Source of the DNA: Actinomyces polynesiensis
GTDB lineage: Bacteria > Actinomycetota > Actinomycetes > Actinomycetales > Actinomycetaceae
Reading direction: 5' to 3'
Length of the DNA stretch: 39,140 nt
Assembly: GCF_000820725.1 (NCBI RefSeq)
Contig: NZ_CCXH01000091.1
Coordinates: 1-39,140 of the forward strand
Shown here piece after piece: positions 20,707 to 28,669 of the stretch. Within the stretch, counting starts at the first letter, position 1, and each line of letters opens with the position of its first letter. Position numbers and translations under genes: made by a program. Below the pieces are notes generated by a model. That model saw only the letters and a program-made list of their open reading frames with translations, searched no databases and had not been told where the DNA came from.

Positions 20707-20985
20707 ATGACGACGGTGGAGATCTGCGTCGAGGACGCCGCGGGGATGCGGGCCGCGTCCCAGCAGGGCGCTGACAGGATCGAGGTCGGGTTCGTCATCG
20801 GCGCCCTGCGGGAGGACCACCGCGTGGACGAGTCCGCGCTCGCCCGACTGGCGGAGGCAGCGGGGCCTGCCCGTGTGACGTTCCACCGGGCCTTCGACCT
20901 CGTTCCCGACCGGCGCGCGGCACTGGAGATCCTCATCGGCCACGGGGTCGGGCGGGTCCTCACCACGGGCGGTGCCGCCACGAGG
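20707..20985 (+). pseudogene. cutC: cutC remnant (internal deletion, no C-terminus)
   Basis: The frame begins with a good CutC N-terminus (VEICVEDAAGMRAASQQGAD, then RIE) but jumps straight to VGFVIGALREDHRVDESALA, which aligns with the middle of CutC. About 58 residues (the loop with the PVH and RPRGGDF segments) are missing in frame. It continues through VTFHRAFD and RVLTTGG, where homology stops; about 110 residues of the normal C-terminus are absent. The frame stays open into the antiporter gene but the following residues are out-of-frame antiporter sequence. CutC is a TIM-barrel protein once linked to copper homeostasis. With half of the barrel gone this cannot fold normally. Confidence 0.8.
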
Positions 20986-21025
20986 GCGGAGCCCCGCAGC
21001 GCTGCAACGGTGGGACAATCACCGC

Positions 21026-22612
21026 GTGCACACCCTGGTCCTCATCGTCGTCCTCGCCCTCGTCTCCGCCGCCGTCGTGGGCATCGGCGACCGGACCCGC
21101 CTGCCCTGGCCCGCCCTCATGGTCGTCGTCGGCGCACTGGTCGCCCTGGTCCCCGGTCTCTCCGTGGACATCGACCCGGAGCTGATCCTGCCGGTGTTCC
21201 TGCCGCCCCTGCTCTACTCCGCAGCGCAACGCACCTCCTGGCAGGTCATGCGTCGCAGGTGGAAGTCCCTGGTCTGGCTGGCGGTCGGCTTGGTGGTCGT
21301 CACGGTGGCTGCGGCGAGCGCCACGGCACTCGCGATCATCCCCGGCATCACGGTCGCGGCAGCCATCGCCCTGAGGGCCATGGTCGCCCCGCCCGACCCC
21401 GTGGCCGTGGAGTCCGTGGCAGGTTCCGTGCCCATCCCGAGACGGGTGCTCATGACCCTGCAGTCCGAGGGACTGTTCAATGACGCCGCTTCCCTCGTCG
21501 TGTTCCAGCTCGCGCTCTCCGCGGCCCTGGCCGGGGACCGACCGGACCTGGGCGCCATGGCGACCGGCTTCCTGATCGGGGCCGTCATCGCGGTGGCGGT
21601 GGGGTGGGTCTGCGCATGGCTGGTCCGCCGAGGCACCGACCTCATCGACTCCCCGATGGCGCGGTCCTCCGCGATCCTCGCACTGCCCTTCCTGGCCTAC
21701 CTCGTCGCCGAACACCTCGGGGCCTCCGGCGTCATCGCCGTGGTGGTGGCGGGCCTCCAGATGCGCTCCTCGGAGGACCCCGCCCGCTCGGGTGACCGCC
21801 TGACCCAGGACGCCCTGTGGGGAGTGCTGGAGACGTGCATCACCGGTGTCGCCTTCGGTCTCATCGGGCTGGAGATCCGCCAGATCGCCCTCGACGTCGG
21901 TCCGGCCATCGGCCGGCTGTTCCTGGACGGCCTCGTGATCGCCCTCGTCCTCGTGGTGGTGCGGGCGGGGTGGTTCCTGCTCATGTGGGCTGCGGTGCAC
22001 CGCGGCGGGGTGGCGGACGACGCGCCGAGGTCCGGGCGTGACGTCGTGGTGATGACGTGGGGTGGAATGCGGGGTCTGGCCACCCTGGCACTCGCACTGT
22101 CGCTGCCCGCAACGCTCAGCGACGGCACCGCTTTCCCCGCCCGCGACGCGATCCTCGTGGTGGCCATCGCAGTCCTCTTCGTGACGCTGCTGGTCGCCGG
22201 GCTCACGCTGCCCGCCCTCGTGCACGCCCTGCACATCGACTCCGAGGCCGAGTCCGAGGCGGCCGCAGAGCAGGCCCTGCGGACCCGCATGATGACGGCC
22301 GCCACTGCAGCGGTCGTCCAGCGCCGGGACATCCCCCCAGCACTGGTGGAACGCATGACGCAGTGGGCACGCCACGTCGCTGAGTCCACCTTCGATGAGG
22401 CCGAGGGCGGCACCCCGAAGTCCCCGCGCATGCAGAAGTTCATCCAGGGGCGCGAGGCCATGGAATCTGCTCGACGTGCCTCACTGGAGGCCTGCCGCGC
22501 GGAGGTTGTCCAGGCGCGCCGCGAACCGGGCACCGACCCTGAGGTGGCCGACCGGATGCTGCGCAGCCTCGACAGGCGCATGGTCGCCCTCGACGCGGCG
22601 GCGGAGGACTGA
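21026..22612 (+). CDS. Na+/H+ antiporter, CPA1 (NhaP/NHE-like)
   Basis: A 528-residue monovalent cation/proton antiporter. About 12 hydrophobic helices fill the first 400 residues. VFLPPLLYSAA, MVAPPDPVAVESVAG and LQSEGLFNDAASLVVF are hallmarks, the last with the transport Asp in the ND pair. The cytoplasmic tail (about 410-528) is helical and charged. GTG 21026 is chosen since GACAAT ends six bases before it and the protein then starts at the first helix; no ribosome site is seen, so the message may be leaderless. The start lies immediately after the truncated cutC, suggesting that the deletion fused this promoter region to the remnant. An 8+1+8 palindrome (GGAGGACA-C-TGTCCTCC, 22650-22666) lies 37 bases after the stop. 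Confidence 0.92.
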   Translation: MHTLVLIVVLALVSAAVVGIGDRTRLPWPALMVVVGALVALVPGLSVDIDPELILPVFLPPLLYSAAQRTSWQVMRRRWKSLVWLAVGLVVVTVAAASATALAIIPGITVAAAIALRAMVAPPDPVAVESVAGSVPIPRRVLMTLQSEGLFNDAASLVVFQLALSAALAGDRPDLGAMATGFLIGAVIAVAVGWVCAWLVRRGTDLIDSPMARSSAILALPFLAYLVAEHLGASGVIAVVVAGLQMRSSEDPARSGDRLTQDALWGVLETCITGVAFGLIGLEIRQIALDVGPAIGRLFLDGLVIALVLVVVRAGWFLLMWAAVHRGGVADDAPRSGRDVVVMTWGGMRGLATLALALSLPATLSDGTAFPARDAILVVAIAVLFVTLLVAGLTLPALVHALHIDSEAESEAAAEQALRTRMMTAATAAVVQRRDIPPALVERMTQWARHVAESTFDEAEGGTPKSPRMQKFIQGREAMESARRASLEACRAEVVQARREPGTDPEVADRMLRSLDRRMVALDAAAED

Positions 22613-22761
22613 GACCGGCTCTCCCGGGCTCATCCCACCCGGCGGACGAGGAGGACACTGTCCTCCACCACTGCGTCCCGACCCTCCGGTCCCCGCTCCG
22701 TCGGTGCCCGCGCCCCGTGGCGCGGCCCGTGGAGTCGGGTCGGGCCCGCCCTCGTCGTGGT

Positions 22762-22779
22762 CCTCGGGACGTCCCGAGG
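22762..22779 (-). terminator. 18-bp perfect palindrome next to zinc-ribbon stop
   Basis: CCTCGGGACGTCCCGAGG is self-complementary and directly abuts the stop codon of the minus-strand small gene, so it can form a hairpin at the message end. No U-run follows. Confidence 0.5.
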
Positions 22780-22977
22780 TCACTTCCTGAAGAGTCGCGA
22801 GAAGAGGCCGGTGCCCGCGCCGGTGCTGCGTCCGCCGGGGGTCCCGGTCCCGCTGCCCTCCGGATGACCCTGGCAGCGTTGGTTGCGCGGGACATCGGCC
22901 AGGGCCTCCTCGATGTGCTGCCCGCATCCGGCCCAGGTGGGCTTTCCGCACGTCCTGCACGTGACTCGTCGACACAT
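22780..22977 (-). CDS. Small zinc-ribbon-like protein (65 aa)
   Basis: A short protein starting MCRRVTCRTCGKPTWAGCGQ, followed by a helix and a second Cys in QRCQGHP. The Cys-x2-Cys pairs and later Cys/His residues suggest one structural zinc site. I recall many actinobacteria carrying a conserved family of this shape, usually called hypothetical. The ATG has an excellent AAGGAG site seven bases upstream. The C-terminal half is Gly/Ser/Thr-rich and ends in LFSRLFRK. It lies 64 bases after the CsoR-family gene on the same strand and may belong to that transcript or have its own promoter. Confidence 0.8.
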   Translation of the reverse strand: MCRRVTCRTCGKPTWAGCGQHIEEALADVPRNQRCQGHPEGSGTGTPGGRSTGAGTGLFSRLFRK

Positions 22978-23041
22978 GGTGATCTCCTTCTGCGGTGCGG
23001 AACCCGGGTCCCGCGCCCGCCAGTCGTTCTTCCCTCTCCTG

Positions 23042-23323
23042 TCACGCCAGTGACAGGAAGATCTTCTCCAGCTCGGCGGGGGTGAGCCCGTCCCGCTCGC
23101 GTGCACCCTCGGGGTCATTCGCGCAGGCCTGCATGGCCCCGGCGACCACGACGAAGCCAGCGCGGTTGAGGGCATGGGTCACGGCGGCGAGCTGGGTGAT
23201 GACATCCCGGCAACTCCCCCCCTCCTCGACCTCGCGGATGACGGCATCGAGTTGCCCACGGGCCCGGCGCAGTCTGTTGGCGACGCGTCGGCAGGTCTCG
23301 TCCTGCGATTCGGGCTGCGACAT
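23042..23323 (-). CDS. CsoR-family repressor, CstR-like persulfide sensor
   Basis: A 93-residue all-helical DUF156/CsoR-family repressor (RLRRARGQLDAVIREVEEGG, ALNRAGFVVVAGAM). Copper sensors of this family use Cys-x24-His-x3-Cys. Here Cys38 and Cys67 keep the Cys positions (29 apart), but the His position is Ala63. That is the pattern of CstR, which senses per- and polysulfides through its two cysteines. Its start codon overlaps the stop of the CoA-disulfide reductase-rhodanese gene (TGATG on the minus strand), so both are co-translated. A CsoR/CstR-type palindrome lies upstream of that gene. The family is secure; the sensed signal is inferred from residues and neighbours. Confidence 0.9.
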   Translation of the reverse strand: MSQPESQDETCRRVANRLRRARGQLDAVIREVEEGGSCRDVITQLAAVTHALNRAGFVVVAGAMQACANDPEGARERDGLTPAELEKIFLSLA

Positions 23324-25061
23324 CAGGATCGTCCTCCGACCGGTTCCTCGACCACGAGCACCTCATCGGCCCGGGCTCCCACCACCGTGCGCAATGTGAG
23401 CATGCCCCCCGACAGTGACGCGGAGTCGAATCCCTCCTGGACGAGGACCCTGTGCGCGATCGCCGAGCGCACCCCCGACTGGCACAGGACCCGCACCGGG
23501 CGTCCCGCCGCTGCATCCCGTACCTCGTCAAGCCGTCCACGCAGCTCGGTGTGGGGGATGCGCAGGGACCCCGAGAGTGCACCCGTCGCGGTCTCGGCGC
23601 CACTGCGCACGTCGAGTACCAGGGAGGAAGCCATGACCTCTTCCAGGTCCTGGGCCTCCCAGAGCCTGAGGATGCCGTCCAGGACATTGGACCCCACCAT
23701 CCCGACCAGGTTCACCGCGTCCTTGGCCTGTCCGTAGGGAGGGGAGTAGGCGAGGTCGAGGTCGATGAGGTCCCCGACCTCCATCCGGTTGCGGATGGCC
23801 GTGGCGAGGACGTCGATGCGCTTGTCCGCCCCGTCCACGCCCACCACCTGGGCACCGAGCAGCAGCCCGTCGTCCGCACGGATGTGGACGGCCACCTGGA
23901 GGGGCCTGGCCCCGGGGAAGTACCCCGCGTGCTGGTTGGGGTGCAGGTGCAGGGTGAGGTGGTCGATGCCGGCAGCTTCGAGGGCCGCCCGGTTCGCGCC
24001 GGTCATGGCGGCGGTGAGGCGCCCGACCCGGACGATGGCCGTGCCCAGGGGCTGGGGAATGGGACGGGCCGTGTCCGGGCGCACGATGTCGTCGGCGACC
24101 TGGCGGCCGGCCCTGTTGGCAGGTCCTGCCAGTGCCACCGGGCGCCGCAGACCCGTGACCGGGTCCGTGCTCAGGGTCGCATCCCCCACCGCCCAGATGC
24201 CGGGCGCGGAGGTGCGACCGTGCTCGTCCACCACGATCGCACCACGCTCGCAGGAGATCCCGGCGCGCTCGAAGACCTCGGTGGCGGGGCGCACACCCAC
24301 CGACATGACGATGAGGTCGGCTCGAGGTGGGTCCCGTCGGAGAGCACCACGGTGTCGACCGACTCCGCGTGGAGGATCCCGTCCGCGGACACGCCGGTGC
24401 GCACATCGATGCCGAGGTGACGCAGTTCCTGGGCGACGGGCCATGCCTGCTCCTCGTCCAGGGGTGGCAGGATGTGCGGGGCGAGCTCGACGACAGTGGT
24501 ACTGAGGCCCTGGTGTGCCAGTGCCTCAGCGGCCTCGATGCCGATGAATCCGGCTCCCAGGACGACGGCCCTCGTGAGTCCGGAGCCGACCCCTGCCCGC
24601 AGTGCCCGCGCATCACCGACATCGCGCAGGGTGTGCACCCGCGGGGAGTCGACTCCCGGGATCGGTGGGACGAAGGCCCGCGCCCCAGGGGAGAGCACCA
24701 GGGCGTCGTACCCGAGGTGTTCCTCCCCGGAGGGTGTCCGCACCGTCACCTCGCGCGCCTCGATGTCGAGATCGGTGACCTCGTGGCGCGTGCGCACATC
24801 GAGGGCGAGCGCCTGCCGGAGGCGTTCGGGGGTCTGTACGAGGAGACTGCTCTCCTCCGCGATCTCCCCGCCGACGAAGTAGGGCAGGCCACAGTTGGCG
24901 AAGGAGACGTGCTCCCCACGTTCAAGGACGATGATCTCGGCCGACTCGTCCAGGCGTCGCGCACGTGCCGCGCAACTCATGCCCCCCGCAACACCGCCGA
25001 CGAGGACGATGCGCCTGCGTCGGGCCTGTTCTTCCCTGACCGCCCCTGTGCTCGTGTTCAT
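23323..25061 (-). pseudogene. CoA-disulfide reductase/NADH oxidase with C-terminal rhodanese, one frameshift
   Basis: A flavoprotein disulfide reductase fused to a rhodanese domain (CoADR-Rhd), a family that reduces CoA persulfides and polysulfides. The N-terminus has IVLVGGVAGGMSCAARARR for FAD and the redox Cys57 in SFANCGLPY; the second dinucleotide site is VVLGAGFIGIEAAEAL. The frame breaks near 24320: the 5' part reads SDGTHLEPTS, the 3' part ADLIVMSVGVRP, and adding one G (GAGCC to GAGGCC) restores THLEADLIV. The remainder has the C-terminal FAD contact WAVGDA, dimer domain SPPYGQAKDAVNLVG and a rhodanese domain with the active Cys in LCQSGVRS. All catalytic residues are intact, so this may be a sequence error in a live gene. 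ATG 25061 has AGGGGG upstream. Confidence 0.85.
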
Positions 25062-25096
25062 TGCGCCCCCTGAGCTCTGGTCCAGATCCAGGAGTC

Positions 25097-25115
25097 ACCA
25101 TACCCCATGGGGTAT
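25097..25115 (-). promoter_or_regulatory. CsoR/CstR-type operator over the -10 of the CoADR operon
   Basis: ATACCCCATGGGGTAT (25100-25115) is a perfect 16-base palindrome of the TACCCC-N-GGGGTA class used by CsoR and CstR repressors. On the minus strand TATGGT (25102 to 25097) overlaps its end and could be the -10, about 35 bases before the CoADR start. Binding of the CstR-like protein would shut the operon. Confidence 0.75.
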
Positions 25116-25147
25116 TTTTCGCCGCATGTCGAGATGCGTCCCCCACC

Positions 25148-28100
25148 TCACCCGAGCAGGACCTGGAGGTCCTCGGCGCTCAGTGTGGCGCCCCCGGCGG
25201 CACGCGTGCGAGCCACCGGAGCGCTGCGACCACTGTGTCCGTTGCCGACGCCGGGTCCGGCGCCGACCGCCCGACCTGTCTCGGTCACCCCCGCACCCTC
25301 GGTCCCCGTGGGAGCCAGCTCGGCGGAATCCCCGGCCAGCACACCGGCTGCGAGGTCGCGCTTGCGCTGTTGGAGGGCCAGGACCTTCTCCTCGATGGTG
25401 TCGCGTGCGACCAGTCGGTAGACGTGGACGGGTCGGGTCTGGCCGATGCGGTGGGCGCGGTCCACGGCCTGGGCCTCGGCGGCCGGGTTCCACCAGGGGT
25501 CTGCGAGGACGGCGTAGTCCGCCATGGCCAGGTTCAGACCGACCCCTCCGGCCTTGAGACTGATGAGGAAGACCGGGTCCTCACCCTGGGCGAAGCCCTC
25601 GATCACCTGCCTGCGGCGCGGCGTGGTGCCGTCGAGGTAGGAGTAGGTCACACCTGCCTGGTCCAGCCGCTGCGCGATGCGGCGCAGGTAGCGGGTGAAC
25701 TGGCTGAAGACCAGCACCCGGTGCCCCTCCTGGGCAGCCCTCTCCAGCAGGGGCACCAGGACCTCCATCTTGGAGGAGGGTGCGGAGGAGTCCTCCTCGA
25801 CCAGTGCCGGGTCGATGGCCAGCTGGCGCAGACGGGTCAGGGCTGCGAGCACCTCCACCTGGTTGTGCTCCAGGTCCTCGGCGAGCCCGAGGATGCGCTG
25901 GCGCTCGCGCTGGAGGTGCCGGTCGTAGATGTGGCGGTGGGCGGGGGCGAGTTCCACGTCGAGGACCTGCTCCTGCTTGGGGGGCAGGTCCAGGGCCACG
26001 TCCTCCTTGGTGCGACGCAGCAGGAAGGGGGCGATGCGGCGGCGCAGGAGGGCCATGAGCTGCCCGTCCGCGTCATCCCCGTGCTCCACCGGCCTGCGGT
26101 AGGACTGCCCGAACTGGGCCGGTGTGCCCAGCAGCCCCGGAGCGGTGAGTGCGAACATCGACCACAGCTCCCCCAGGTGGTTCTCCATCGGCGTGCCCGT
26201 GATGGCGAAGACCACGGGAGCCTGGACCTTCTTCACGGCGGCGAAGGTGCGCGAGTTGTGGTTCTTGACGTTCTGGGCCTCGTCGAGGACCAGTCCGGCG
26301 ACGCCCAGGTCGGTGTAGTCCTGTTCCTCCAGGCGCAGCAGCGCGTAGGAGGTGACGACCACGTCGGCCCCACGCGTCGCCTCCGCCAGGTCAGTCCCCC
26401 GCCTGGCCCTGGTCGCCTCGATGGCCACGACCCGCAGGTCCGGCGCGAACCGCCCGGCCTCGGACACCCAGTTGGGCACCACGGAGGTCGGGGCGACCAC
26501 CAGCCATGGGCCCCTGTCGCGGGCAGCAGCGGAAGCCCCCTCGGTCCGCTCGGACCCGTCCTCCCCGCCGACGAGGGCGGCGCCGTCCCCGTCCCTCTCG
26601 TCGAGGATCATGGCGAGCACCTGCAGGGTCTTGCCCAGCCCCATGTCGTCGGCGAGCACGCCGCCCAGTCCGGAGCGGCGCAGGCGCGCCAACCACTCGA
26701 AGCCCTCGACCTGGTAGGGGCGCAATGTGGCTCGCAGGCCGACCGGCAGGGGCGCAGGCTCCGGCGGTTGCGCCACCGCATCGCGCACTGCCTGGAACCA
26801 GGCGTGCTCGCTGGTGTCCACGATCCCCAGGGACAGGAGCTCCTCCCACCAGGACAGGCGTACCTGCGGTACGCGCAGGGTGGAGCGTCGCTGGTCGGAC
26901 AGCTCCGCGGCCTCCGCCAGGAGGCGGCGGAGGTGGTCCAGCGCCGGGTCGTCCAGGTGCGCGTAGGTCCCGTCGGGCAGGAAGAGGACGTCCTCGCCCA
27001 GGGTGAGGGCACGCACCAGGGAGGCCATGGGGACCTCGACCCCGCCGACCTCGACGTGGACGTCCAGGTCGAACCAGTCGGGGCCCTCCGACGCGACCTC
27101 GATGCGGACCAGGGGAGCTCCGCCGTCACGCAGCTCCGGCACGTCGTGGTGCAGCACGGTCACACCCAGTGCCTCCAGTCGGGGGACGACCTCCTCCACC
27201 AGGGTCGCGATCGCCAATCCCTCGATCCGGGCGTCCTGGAGTGGGCGGGGGCACGGGAGGGCCGCCGCCTCGACCGTGCCTTCCAGTCCGACCAGCACAT
27301 GGGAGACCTCGGTGAGCAGGGCGACCTGGGCCCCGCCCTCGTCCGTGGAGGAGCGCAGGGGCTGCTCCACACCCAGGGCCGGTCCGCCGGGACGCTGCCA
27401 CGTCCACTGCAGACGCACGACCGGTCGGGAGGATCCGTCGCTACGGGACCCCGGGGTGATGTCGAGGTTGAGCTCGGGTGGCTGCGGCGGGGCCGGGGCG
27501 TAGCTGGAGTCCGGGGAGACCCAGGCGCCCCCGCCGATGCGCGGGAGGATCTCCCGTTCGAAGTCGGGACGGTCCCGGGTCGGTACCACCACCGACTCAC
27601 GCTGGCCCGCGAGGGCCTGCCAGGTGCGCGAGGCCGGGCGTTCCAGGCCTGCCAGGCGCAGTACGCCTTCGGCGTCACGCCACGCCAGGCCGTGTACGGG
27701 CGAACCGCACTGCACCCGCTGCGCGTCGGGCACGAGTCCGGAGTGGCGCAGAGCGGCCTCAAGGTGCAGGTTCCCGCCCTCGTCCGAGACGATGGAGACA
27801 TCGGCACGGGCGGGGGTCGGCTCCAGGACGACAGGCCGGAACGAGTCGGACTCGACCAGCTCGACCCCGGTCCCCACGACCCGCGCCAGGACGCGCCACA
27901 GGTCCGGGGACGTCCCGGCGCAGAGATCGATCCACGGCCGCGAGGAGGAGTAGTAGGGATCCCACTCGGGATCCGTGCGGCGCAGTTCCCGGAGGGCGTC
28001 GAGCTGGTCCGGATCAGCGTCGTCCACGGAGCCCTGGGCGATCTTCGTCCACGTCGCCCCGGTGACGATCCACCGGCCCCGTTTCCCCATGCGCAGGGGC

Positions 28101-28636
28101 CGGGCGTTGAGGATGCCGGGAGAGCCCCGGTCCACGCGCCAGGGCAGGGGGGAACGGCTGTGTCCACGCGCGGCCTGCTCCCCGGGGGCACGCTCGGGGT
28201 GGAACTCCAGGGCGAGGGCGAGGCGGGTGAGCGTGTCGGAAGCGGCGGGGAGCAGGTCCCCCAGCACGGACCGCCACGAGGGCGACGACACCCCGGCAGG
28301 ACCTCTGCCACCCGCCCCGCCAGCGGATGGGGAACCCAGTGCGGTGAGCAGCAGCGCCACCACGTGCTTGCAGTTGTACCCGACCGGGCATGAGCACTCC
28401 CCCTCCACGGCGGTGAGGACGCCGGCAGGTGAGTACTCGTACTCCAGGGTGGTGGCGTAGGTGTGTGTCCCCGAACCCTGGCACAGGCCCATGACCTCGC
28501 CGGTCTCGGGGTCGTGGTGGAGCAGGTGGACACGGCCCTCACGCGCATACGCGCGCCCCCGGGTGAAGGGACCCATCCCCACCAGTGCCGCGAGTTCCAC
28601 GGGCTCCGCCATGTCGACCAGCGTAGGGGATGGCAT
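25148..28636 (-). CDS. SNF2-family DEAD/DEAH-type helicase with SWIM zinc finger
   Basis: A 1162-residue Swi2/Snf2 ATPase. A SWIM zinc finger lies near the N-terminus (Cys81-x-Cys83-x5-Cys89-x-His91, in ECSCPVGYNCKH), followed by a long family-specific region. The helicase core has Walker A DDMGLGKT at about 660-667, motif II LDEAQN at about 784, and motif VI DRAHRIGQTRPVHVYRLV at about 1060. Motif II is DEAQ, as in other bacterial SWIM-SNF2 proteins. ATG 28636 is chosen because AGGTGG lies shortly upstream; a GTG three codons earlier is possible. It starts 33 bases after the stop of the upstream ketopantoate-reductase-like gene on the same strand. Such proteins act in DNA repair, transcription or nucleoprotein remodelling; the precise role is not known. 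Confidence 0.93.
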   Translation of the reverse strand: MPSPTLVDMAEPVELAALVGMGPFTRGRAYAREGRVHLLHHDPETGEVMGLCQGSGTHTYATTLEYEYSPAGVLTAVEGECSCPVGYNCKHVVALLLTALGSPSAGGAGGRGPAGVSSPSWRSVLGDLLPAASDTLTRLALALEFHPERAPGEQAARGHSRSPLPWRVDRGSPGILNARPLRMGKRGRWIVTGATWTKIAQGSVDDADPDQLDALRELRRTDPEWDPYYSSSRPWIDLCAGTSPDLWRVLARVVGTGVELVESDSFRPVVLEPTPARADVSIVSDEGGNLHLEAALRHSGLVPDAQRVQCGSPVHGLAWRDAEGVLRLAGLERPASRTWQALAGQRESVVVPTRDRPDFEREILPRIGGGAWVSPDSSYAPAPPQPPELNLDITPGSRSDGSSRPVVRLQWTWQRPGGPALGVEQPLRSSTDEGGAQVALLTEVSHVLVGLEGTVEAAALPCPRPLQDARIEGLAIATLVEEVVPRLEALGVTVLHHDVPELRDGGAPLVRIEVASEGPDWFDLDVHVEVGGVEVPMASLVRALTLGEDVLFLPDGTYAHLDDPALDHLRRLLAEAAELSDQRRSTLRVPQVRLSWWEELLSLGIVDTSEHAWFQAVRDAVAQPPEPAPLPVGLRATLRPYQVEGFEWLARLRRSGLGGVLADDMGLGKTLQVLAMILDERDGDGAALVGGEDGSERTEGASAAARDRGPWLVVAPTSVVPNWVSEAGRFAPDLRVVAIEATRARRGTDLAEATRGADVVVTSYALLRLEEQDYTDLGVAGLVLDEAQNVKNHNSRTFAAVKKVQAPVVFAITGTPMENHLGELWSMFALTAPGLLGTPAQFGQSYRRPVEHGDDADGQLMALLRRRIAPFLLRRTKEDVALDLPPKQEQVLDVELAPAHRHIYDRHLQRERQRILGLAEDLEHNQVEVLAALTRLRQLAIDPALVEEDSSAPSSKMEVLVPLLERAAQEGHRVLVFSQFTRYLRRIAQRLDQAGVTYSYLDGTTPRRRQVIEGFAQGEDPVFLISLKAGGVGLNLAMADYAVLADPWWNPAAEAQAVDRAHRIGQTRPVHVYRLVARDTIEEKVLALQQRKRDLAAGVLAGDSAELAPTGTEGAGVTETGRAVGAGPGVGNGHSGRSAPVARTRAAGGATLSAEDLQVLLG

Positions 28637-28669
28637 GTGCACCACCTGGAACGGGTCGCGGTGGGCCCC

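Follow-up and report, generated by a model that had tools for sequence, protein, structure and literature searches.

A predicted sulfane-sulfur response operon with a CstR-like repressor in Actinomyces polynesiensis, and the operator spacing of related CsoR-type loci

The DNA analysed here, referred to as the window, is a stretch of 39,140 nucleotides of contig NZ_CCXH01000091.1 (contig C91) from the draft assembly GCF_000820725.1 of Actinomyces polynesiensis. On the minus strand, a palindrome at 25100-25115 is followed in order by the gene for a CoA-disulfide reductase-rhodanese (CoADR-rhodanese), a gene for a CsoR-family repressor and a gene for a small Cys/His protein. The features are as follows:

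22780..22977, minus strand: 65-aa Cys/His mini-protein, with C2, C7, C10, C18, H21 and C35
23042..23323, minus strand: CstR-like CsoR/DUF156 repressor, 93 aa, with Cys38-Ala63-Cys67; the start and the reductase stop overlap in TGATG
23323..24324, minus strand: C-terminal half of the reductase, comprising the NAD part, a dimerisation domain and a C-terminal rhodanese, with matches to PF07992, PF02852 and PF00581 and the rhodanese loop CQSGVRS (TIGR03385 positions 233-439; ORF 23323-24444)
24321..25061, minus strand: N-terminal (FAD/NAD) half of the reductase, with the active-site Cys in SFANCGLPY (TIGR03385 positions 1-228; ORF 24171-25061)
25097..25102, minus strand: -10-like hexamer TATGGT, overlapping the operator, score 4/6
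25100..25115, no strand: perfect 16-bp palindrome ATACCCCATGGGGTAT, predicted sulfur-type operator, TACC-N6-GGTA (equal to TAC-N8-GTA)

The repressor carries the CsoR/DUF156 domain (PF02583, 69.3 bits versus a Pfam cut-off of 22.8). Its only NCBIfam matches are FrmR (38 of 133 bits) and RicR (30.7 of 175), both far under cut-off. Cys38 and Cys67 are 29 residues apart, and the Cys-His-Cys ligand set of copper CsoR proteins is absent, as Ala63 replaces the His. The first-pass annotation had read these three residues as the CstR pattern and had reported the TGATG overlap between the repressor and reductase genes; both readings were confirmed in the sequence, and an alignment of 23 chosen sequences agrees at the His position. 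Immediately upstream lies the split CoADR-rhodanese gene, so that the repressor is linked to a rhodanese-type sulfur gene. A pattern search was extended to 142 loci, comprising 60 from the family, 80 from named genomes (the best 80 of at least 561 relatives), the window and a second copy on contig C194, with a few near-copies among them. In all 142 the ligand position holds a residue other than His (Ala in 118, Gly in 14, Ile in 4, Ser in 4, Thr in 1 and Val in 1).

For a repressor tree of 88 columns we took 51 of the 143 sulfur-type loci, 16 of the 30 copper-type loci and, as fragments, 5 of the 10 solved sequences, with L061, L247 and L248 excluded because of bad coordinates. The 51 sulfur-type rows stand on one side of a branch with an SH-aLRT value of 91, the value for the 16 copper-type rows being 81. 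The solved regulators 7mq1 and 7mq3 do not group clearly with the window repressor in this tree, which has few columns (88) and is too short for deciding between a position with firmicute CstR and one apart from it. We take entries 7mq1 to 7mq3, labelled csoR in the database, to be the pneumococcal CstR. As no clear grouping with 7mq1/7mq3 was obtained, the window repressor is here called CstR-like by function, CstR by descent being a separate matter.

The motifs SFxNCGLPY and CxxGxRS, which we take to mark the active-site Cys of CoADR and the C-terminal rhodanese, respectively, are both present in the window, one in each half of the reductase. The enzyme had been described as one gene. As sequenced it is frameshifted: the two halves use different frames, which adjoin near 24320, and no continuous frame spans them. 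Neither half contains a stop, and the divergence of the halves from two relatives is 0.41-0.52 at third positions and 0.10-0.21 at first and second positions. As the halves are stop-free and diverge mostly at third positions, the frame break is probably either recent or an assembly error, the latter being conceivable because the draft consists of 309 contigs.

The palindrome was confirmed as a perfect 16-base sequence, ATACCCCATGGGGTAT, at 25100-25115. It has a single match in the window and none in 100 shuffles, which rules out a chance origin. A looser 17-base pattern (wrong spacing, three mismatches) occurs in the window at chance level (2 matches vs 0.80 expected). The spacer between the TACC and GGTA arms is N6, and the site is not of the copper type TACC-N7-GGTA (TAC-N9-GTA); the earlier name "CsoR/CstR palindrome" thus covers two kinds of site whose spacers are one base apart in length. 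The palindrome had also been said to cover the probable -10. Indeed TATGGT overlaps it, but a sigma-70 promoter scan of the window found no promoter, and the -35 region matches TTGACA at only 2/6 bases, without a good -35 hexamer; a -10 at this place is plausible as judged from the letters. Among relatives, a -10-like hexamer facing the enzyme scores at least 5/6 in 41 of 75 rows; the mirrored reading gives 14 of 75.

The operon had been called self-contained. This needs qualifying, as a second whole unit, with an intact enzyme, is present on another contig of the same draft (C194, locus L098, 4905-7346). It consists of a CoADR-rhodanese in one continuous frame, a repressor 60% identical to that of the window, a mini-protein and a palindrome with an identical 14-bp core. 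The best solved relative of the C194 enzyme is 8a56, a CoA-persulfide reductase (460 bits, aligned over 2-544). Contig C103 encodes a third CsoR, in which the ligand position is His and next to which lies a CopZ-like gene. The pattern TACCCCN{0,3}GGGGTA matches five sites in the draft genome, and its backwards-read control matches none there. Two of the five have a two-base gap and precede the two CoADR units; the other three are TACCCC-N3-GGGGTA sites and lie in front of the CsoR gene of C103 and of two genes for P-type ATPases.

The two copies have different relatives. Over 9.2 kb, the DNA of the C194 unit matches that of the close relative G190 at 93% identity. G190 also keeps the genes on either side of the window operon, an antiporter and an SNF2 helicase gene, at 77-88% identity (locus L389, compared with window 20972-28645). 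These genes adjoin there without the operon, with 836 bp between them vs 2531 bp in the window, and a search of this interval with the operon proteins gave a best E value of only 0.27. In a tree of the enzyme C-terminal half (47 chosen loci), the window copy stands with four g9 rows (97/87), and G190 and G192 go with the C194 copy. As the G190 flanks lack the operon and the window enzyme groups with the g9 rows, these comparisons suggest that the window copy was gained horizontally. Alternatively, the operon may have been lost in G190, or contigs C91 and C194 may come from different cells.

Repressor and enzyme are widespread in the family. The repressor was found in 111 of 200 family genomes (E 1e-10 or better) and the CoADR-rhodanese in 112 (1e-110 or better). 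With the genome lists combined by hand and shared ancestry ignored, both occur in 98 genomes, the repressor only in 13, the enzyme only in 14 and neither in 75. Named genomes, considered for the best 80 of at least 561 relatives, are nearly all Actinomycetota, one being labelled Acidobacteria, and include Nesterenkonia, Microbacterium, Isoptericola, Cellulomonas, Georgenia, Cryobacterium and Corynebacterium. A CoADR-type reductase, with or without rhodanese, lies near the repressor at 100 of the 142 loci (the named ones again being the best 80 of at least 561) and was not seen in the stretch examined at the other 42; some loci duplicate one place (L043 = L217) or are near-copies. The first-pass annotation had suggested that this linkage may be little described. 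Within the family and elsewhere in the Actinomycetota it is frequent, and an actinobacterial CsoR-type repressor responding to sulfane sulfur is already in print, but in the available part of that report the linked gene is a persulfide dioxygenase and not a CoADR (PMC7533328).

Several loci in this set bear on the mobility of the genes or on their annotation. Two family genera share near-identical enzymes at L071 and L073 (end branches 0.011 and 0.003), a hint of transfer. L188, L189, L192 and L193, from Microbacterium (plasmid), Thermocrispum, Cellulosimicrobium and Microlunatus, share equal repressor score, neighbour and operator coordinates; this sameness would reflect either recent transfer or assembly cross-contamination. 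Repressor relatives match 131 plasmid records, none of which covers 80% of the query. On the Microbacterium plasmid pYJNG (L390), a relative annotated as a metal-sensitive regulator comes after trxA, a FAD-dependent oxidoreductase gene and a DUF2892 gene.

We then compared the sites upstream of sulfur-type and copper-type loci. Within the genus, the 14-bp site TACCCCNNGGGGTA is present in 22 of the 23 genomes that bear the repressor, the exception being G042, and in none of the 12 that lack it. Six of these 12 keep the enzyme, and therefore the site follows the repressor, not the enzyme. By coordinates, 23 of the 27 TACCCCNNGGGGTA sites in the genus lie at the enzyme/repressor locus and 4 elsewhere (in G179 and G186). 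These four outlying sites (L162, L163, L165 and L166) are beside a gene of the SLAC1 family (PF03595) in two cases and before a gene for a 416-422 aa protein in the other two; one protein of each pair was scanned, and that of the latter pair has no Pfam match. The genes at these four sites are possible extra members of the regulon.

TACC/GGTA arms with spacers of 2-11 bases were next counted within 300 bp upstream of the repressor, enzyme or mini-protein. An exact N6 site was found at 101 of 141 sulfur-type loci and an exact N7 site at none. Identical upstream regions had been removed within groups (63 family, 78 named); when they are removed over the whole set instead (143 reduced to 140), the N6 count is 100/140. 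Every spacer other than N6 occurs at one locus at most, and with shuffled upstream regions chance yields about one site for each spacer across the full set. Among the 40 loci without an exact N6 site in the 300 bp, nine have a one-mismatch N6 site and one has a one-mismatch N7 site. The window itself is among these 40 only because the search began at the downstream half of its split enzyme gene. For some protein matches the first stretch was kept and not the best one, so that the start of the search may be shifted and sites may be hidden. At nine sulfur-type loci from a sample of the phylum, for which the whole 3-kb stretch was searched, N6 was found in eight and N7 in none.

Copper-type loci show the other spacing. 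The 30 family loci, which are the best-scoring relatives of the C103 copper-type CsoR, have N7 in 30/30, N6 in one and His at the ligand position in 30/30, the last partly by choice, as the loci were picked as the best relatives of that protein. At 29 copper-type loci of the class, N7 is found in 21, N6 in none and neither in 8, with His in 29/29. When both groups are pooled, His is present in 59/59 and N6 in 1/59. The 15-bp form TACCCCNNNGGGGTA occurs at 48 sites in 31 of 35 genus genomes. Of 29 such sites, one per genome and outside the own genome, 22 are at a copper CsoR, 3 at a P-type ATPase, 1 at a CoADR (in G009) and 3 at none of the queries. The two spacings agree with published geometries, as given in the available parts of the reports: the operator of the Streptomyces lividans copper CsoR is TAC-X9-GTA (PMC3902906) and that of ScCsoR is ATACCn6GGTAT (PMC7533328). 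In the CsoR/CstR literature searched, available in part and with incomplete coverage, we found no statement of spacing as a discriminator between sulfur and copper sites.

Among the 14 family genomes with the enzyme only, G081 does carry a relative of the repressor at this locus (tblastn E 8e-14), which fell short of the family threshold. In the remaining 13 the repressor has presumably been lost. Within 400 bp ahead of the enzyme gene, three of these genomes have an N7 site (G009, G155 and G015, from two genera) and none has an exact N6 site; G066 has a one-mismatch N6 site, and nine have no site within one mismatch of the TACCC/GGGTA arms. Exact N7 is thus found at 3 of 13 repressor-less vs 0 of 101 repressor-bearing enzyme loci (Fisher 0.0012, shared ancestry ignored and the 3 of 13 compiled by hand). 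G009 and G155 belong to one genus and to one clade of the enzyme tree without resolved branching. L378, L383 and L384 are enzyme loci at which the repressor was not detected and an N7 site lies upstream. Such sites point to a possible capture of the enzyme gene by the copper CsoR; alternatively, they would be relics of an insertion with a disabling effect. As a broader proposal, to which we give somewhat less than even credence, Actinomycetota might insulate their copper (TACC-N7-GGTA) and sulfane-sulfur (TACC-N6-GGTA) CsoR paralogues by one base, and operons that lost the repressor might have been handed to the copper regulator more than once by a one-base change (G009/G155 in one genus, G015 in another).

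Behind the repressor, a zinc-ribbon gene had been noted. A small Cys-rich gene is indeed located there (22780-22977), but the term zinc-ribbon describes it by look only: at a threshold of 0.001 the product matches no Pfam or NCBIfam family, and at loose limits Pfam leaves the window protein unmatched and gives its C194 homologue a match of chance level (E 0.32). In 129 unique homologues, 42-75 aa long, C7, C10, G17, C18, G19, H21 and C35 are present in all 129 and M1, C2 and W15 in 128. The AlphaFold model has a mean pLDDT of 73, rising to 86-87 over residues 1-30, and a structural search with it gave no significant match (best E 3.5). The mini-protein occurs at 103 of 143 repressor loci. In the genus, all 30 fetched homologues (of 33 matches) are within 1.5 kb of the enzyme or the repressor. 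A match is found in 36 of the 296 genomes sampled from the phylum, among them the own genome; of 29 fetched loci, 13 have an enzyme or repressor neighbour and 16 do not. As a guess, the protein may be a metal or persulfide carrier.

We consider it very likely, from the sequence and by analogy, that the unit is a response operon for sulfane sulfur (persulfide/polysulfide) in which a CstR-like repressor controls a CoA-persulfide reductase. The reading draws on the gene content, residues, operator and linkage observed at these loci and on the co-occurrence of operator and repressor. Effector, chemistry, enzyme activity and autoregulation would be those of the characterised relatives. In its thiol form, the repressor would bind the TACC-N6-GGTA palindrome, which overlaps the promoter, and would block transcription of the CoADR-rhodanese, of its own gene and of the small Cys/His protein. 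When persulfides rise, Cys38, together with Cys67, would be persulfidated or cross-linked and the repressor would come off the DNA; by analogy with ScCsoR, it most likely leaves the operator upon reaction of Cys38 with persulfide. The derepressed enzyme would then reduce CoA persulfide or disulfide until the signal drops. As the window enzyme gene is frameshifted, be it truly or by assembly error, the intact C194 copy may do the work in this genome.

Other readings have to be weighed against this one. The repressor could be a CsoR for copper or another metal that shares the copper operator, its linkage to the CoADR being incidental; it shares the Pfam family and a palindrome of like general type with the copper regulators, and public plasmid records annotate such proteins as "metal-sensitive transcriptional regulator". 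This we hold to be most improbable, given the lack of His at the ligand position in 142/142 loci (the named ones being the best 80 of at least 561), the separate His-bearing copper-type CsoR beside a CopZ-like gene in the same draft and an operator spacing of N6 vs N7. Residues, spacing and the separate copper-type CsoR together lead us to reject copper sensing by the window repressor. Cys-based regulators of the CsoR fold can respond to other thiol-reactive agents, and the main cue might be formaldehyde, disulfide stress, nitroxyl or hypochlorite. The sole NCBIfam matches, to FrmR and RicR, lie far under cut-off but would fit such a cue, as would the cross-linking of the CstR of Staphylococcus aureus by nitroxyl as well, described in the available part of PMC5480029. 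However, the partner enzyme belongs to a family that acts on CoA disulfide or persulfide, and the closest described actinobacterial system answers to polysulfide in what is available of PMC7533328; a different main signal is thus improbable.

A further reading concerns the window copy itself, which might be a decaying, horizontally acquired pseudo-operon while the C194 copy works. The frame break, the operon-free interval between matching flanks in G190 (77-88% identical, 836 vs 2531 bp) and the position of the window enzyme with the four g9 rows (97/87), apart from the C194 copy, all speak for it. Yet both halves are stop-free and diverge by codon position as working genes typically do; the break may have arisen in the assembly of the 309-contig draft, and C91 and C194 may come from different cells. 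Taking these points together, we regard a pseudo-operon as rather unlikely and retain the sulfane-sulfur response operon as the preferred reading of the unit.

If so, an operon that is widespread in actinobacteria, and whose regulator plasmid records label as metal-sensitive, would be placed in the defence against reactive sulfur. The spacing would allow CsoR-type sites to be read by one simple rule, from their letters alone. For the questions of how paralogous repressors remain insulated and how a stress operon could switch its signal by a one-base change, the loci offer a natural experiment; they also point to a widespread family of Cys/His mini-proteins of 42-75 aa.

The known systems were compared from the available parts of the respective reports. 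The first-pass annotation had cited staphylococci as precedent for a CstR with a rhodanese and a CoADR. The targets of S. aureus CstR are, however, cstA, cstB and sqr, without a CoADR (PMC5480029), and the pairing belongs to Enterococcus faecalis, where CstR controls a CoADR-rhodanese, CoAPR (PMC9405070; structure 8a56). A staphylococcal-type cst operon is ruled out for the window by gene content. What S. aureus shares with the genome studied here is a CsoR paralogue for reactive sulfur next to a separate copper CsoR (PMC5480029). The E. faecalis system resembles the window in that a dithiol repressor of the CsoR family controls a CoADR-rhodanese; unlike the window operon, it is found in a Firmicute and has two extra sulfurtransferases, RhdA and RhdB, and the available text does not mention the mini-protein (PMC9405070). 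The S. lividans copper CsoR has the fold family and the palindrome type in common with the window repressor but is a copper sensor, and its operator TAC-X9-GTA is one base longer than the TAC-N8-GTA of the window (PMC3902906). ScCsoR of Streptomyces coelicolor (SCO0620) is, like the window repressor, an actinobacterial CsoR-type repressor with two Cys (Cys37/Cys66) 29 apart and a 16-bp operator of the geometry ATACCn6GGTAT; it leaves the DNA on polysulfide via persulfidation of Cys37, and its circuit is autoregulated and includes a rhodanese gene, a further likeness to the window unit (PMC7533328). In contrast to the window, it controls a persulfide dioxygenase, a rhodanese and a sulfite transporter rather than a CoADR-rhodanese, and the available part of that report says nothing of a small Cys/His protein (PMC7533328). 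As a whole, the window system is a variant of CsoR-family sulfur circuits already in print, and what is newer in it is the rule on operator spacing, the mini-protein and what may be a hand-over to copper control.
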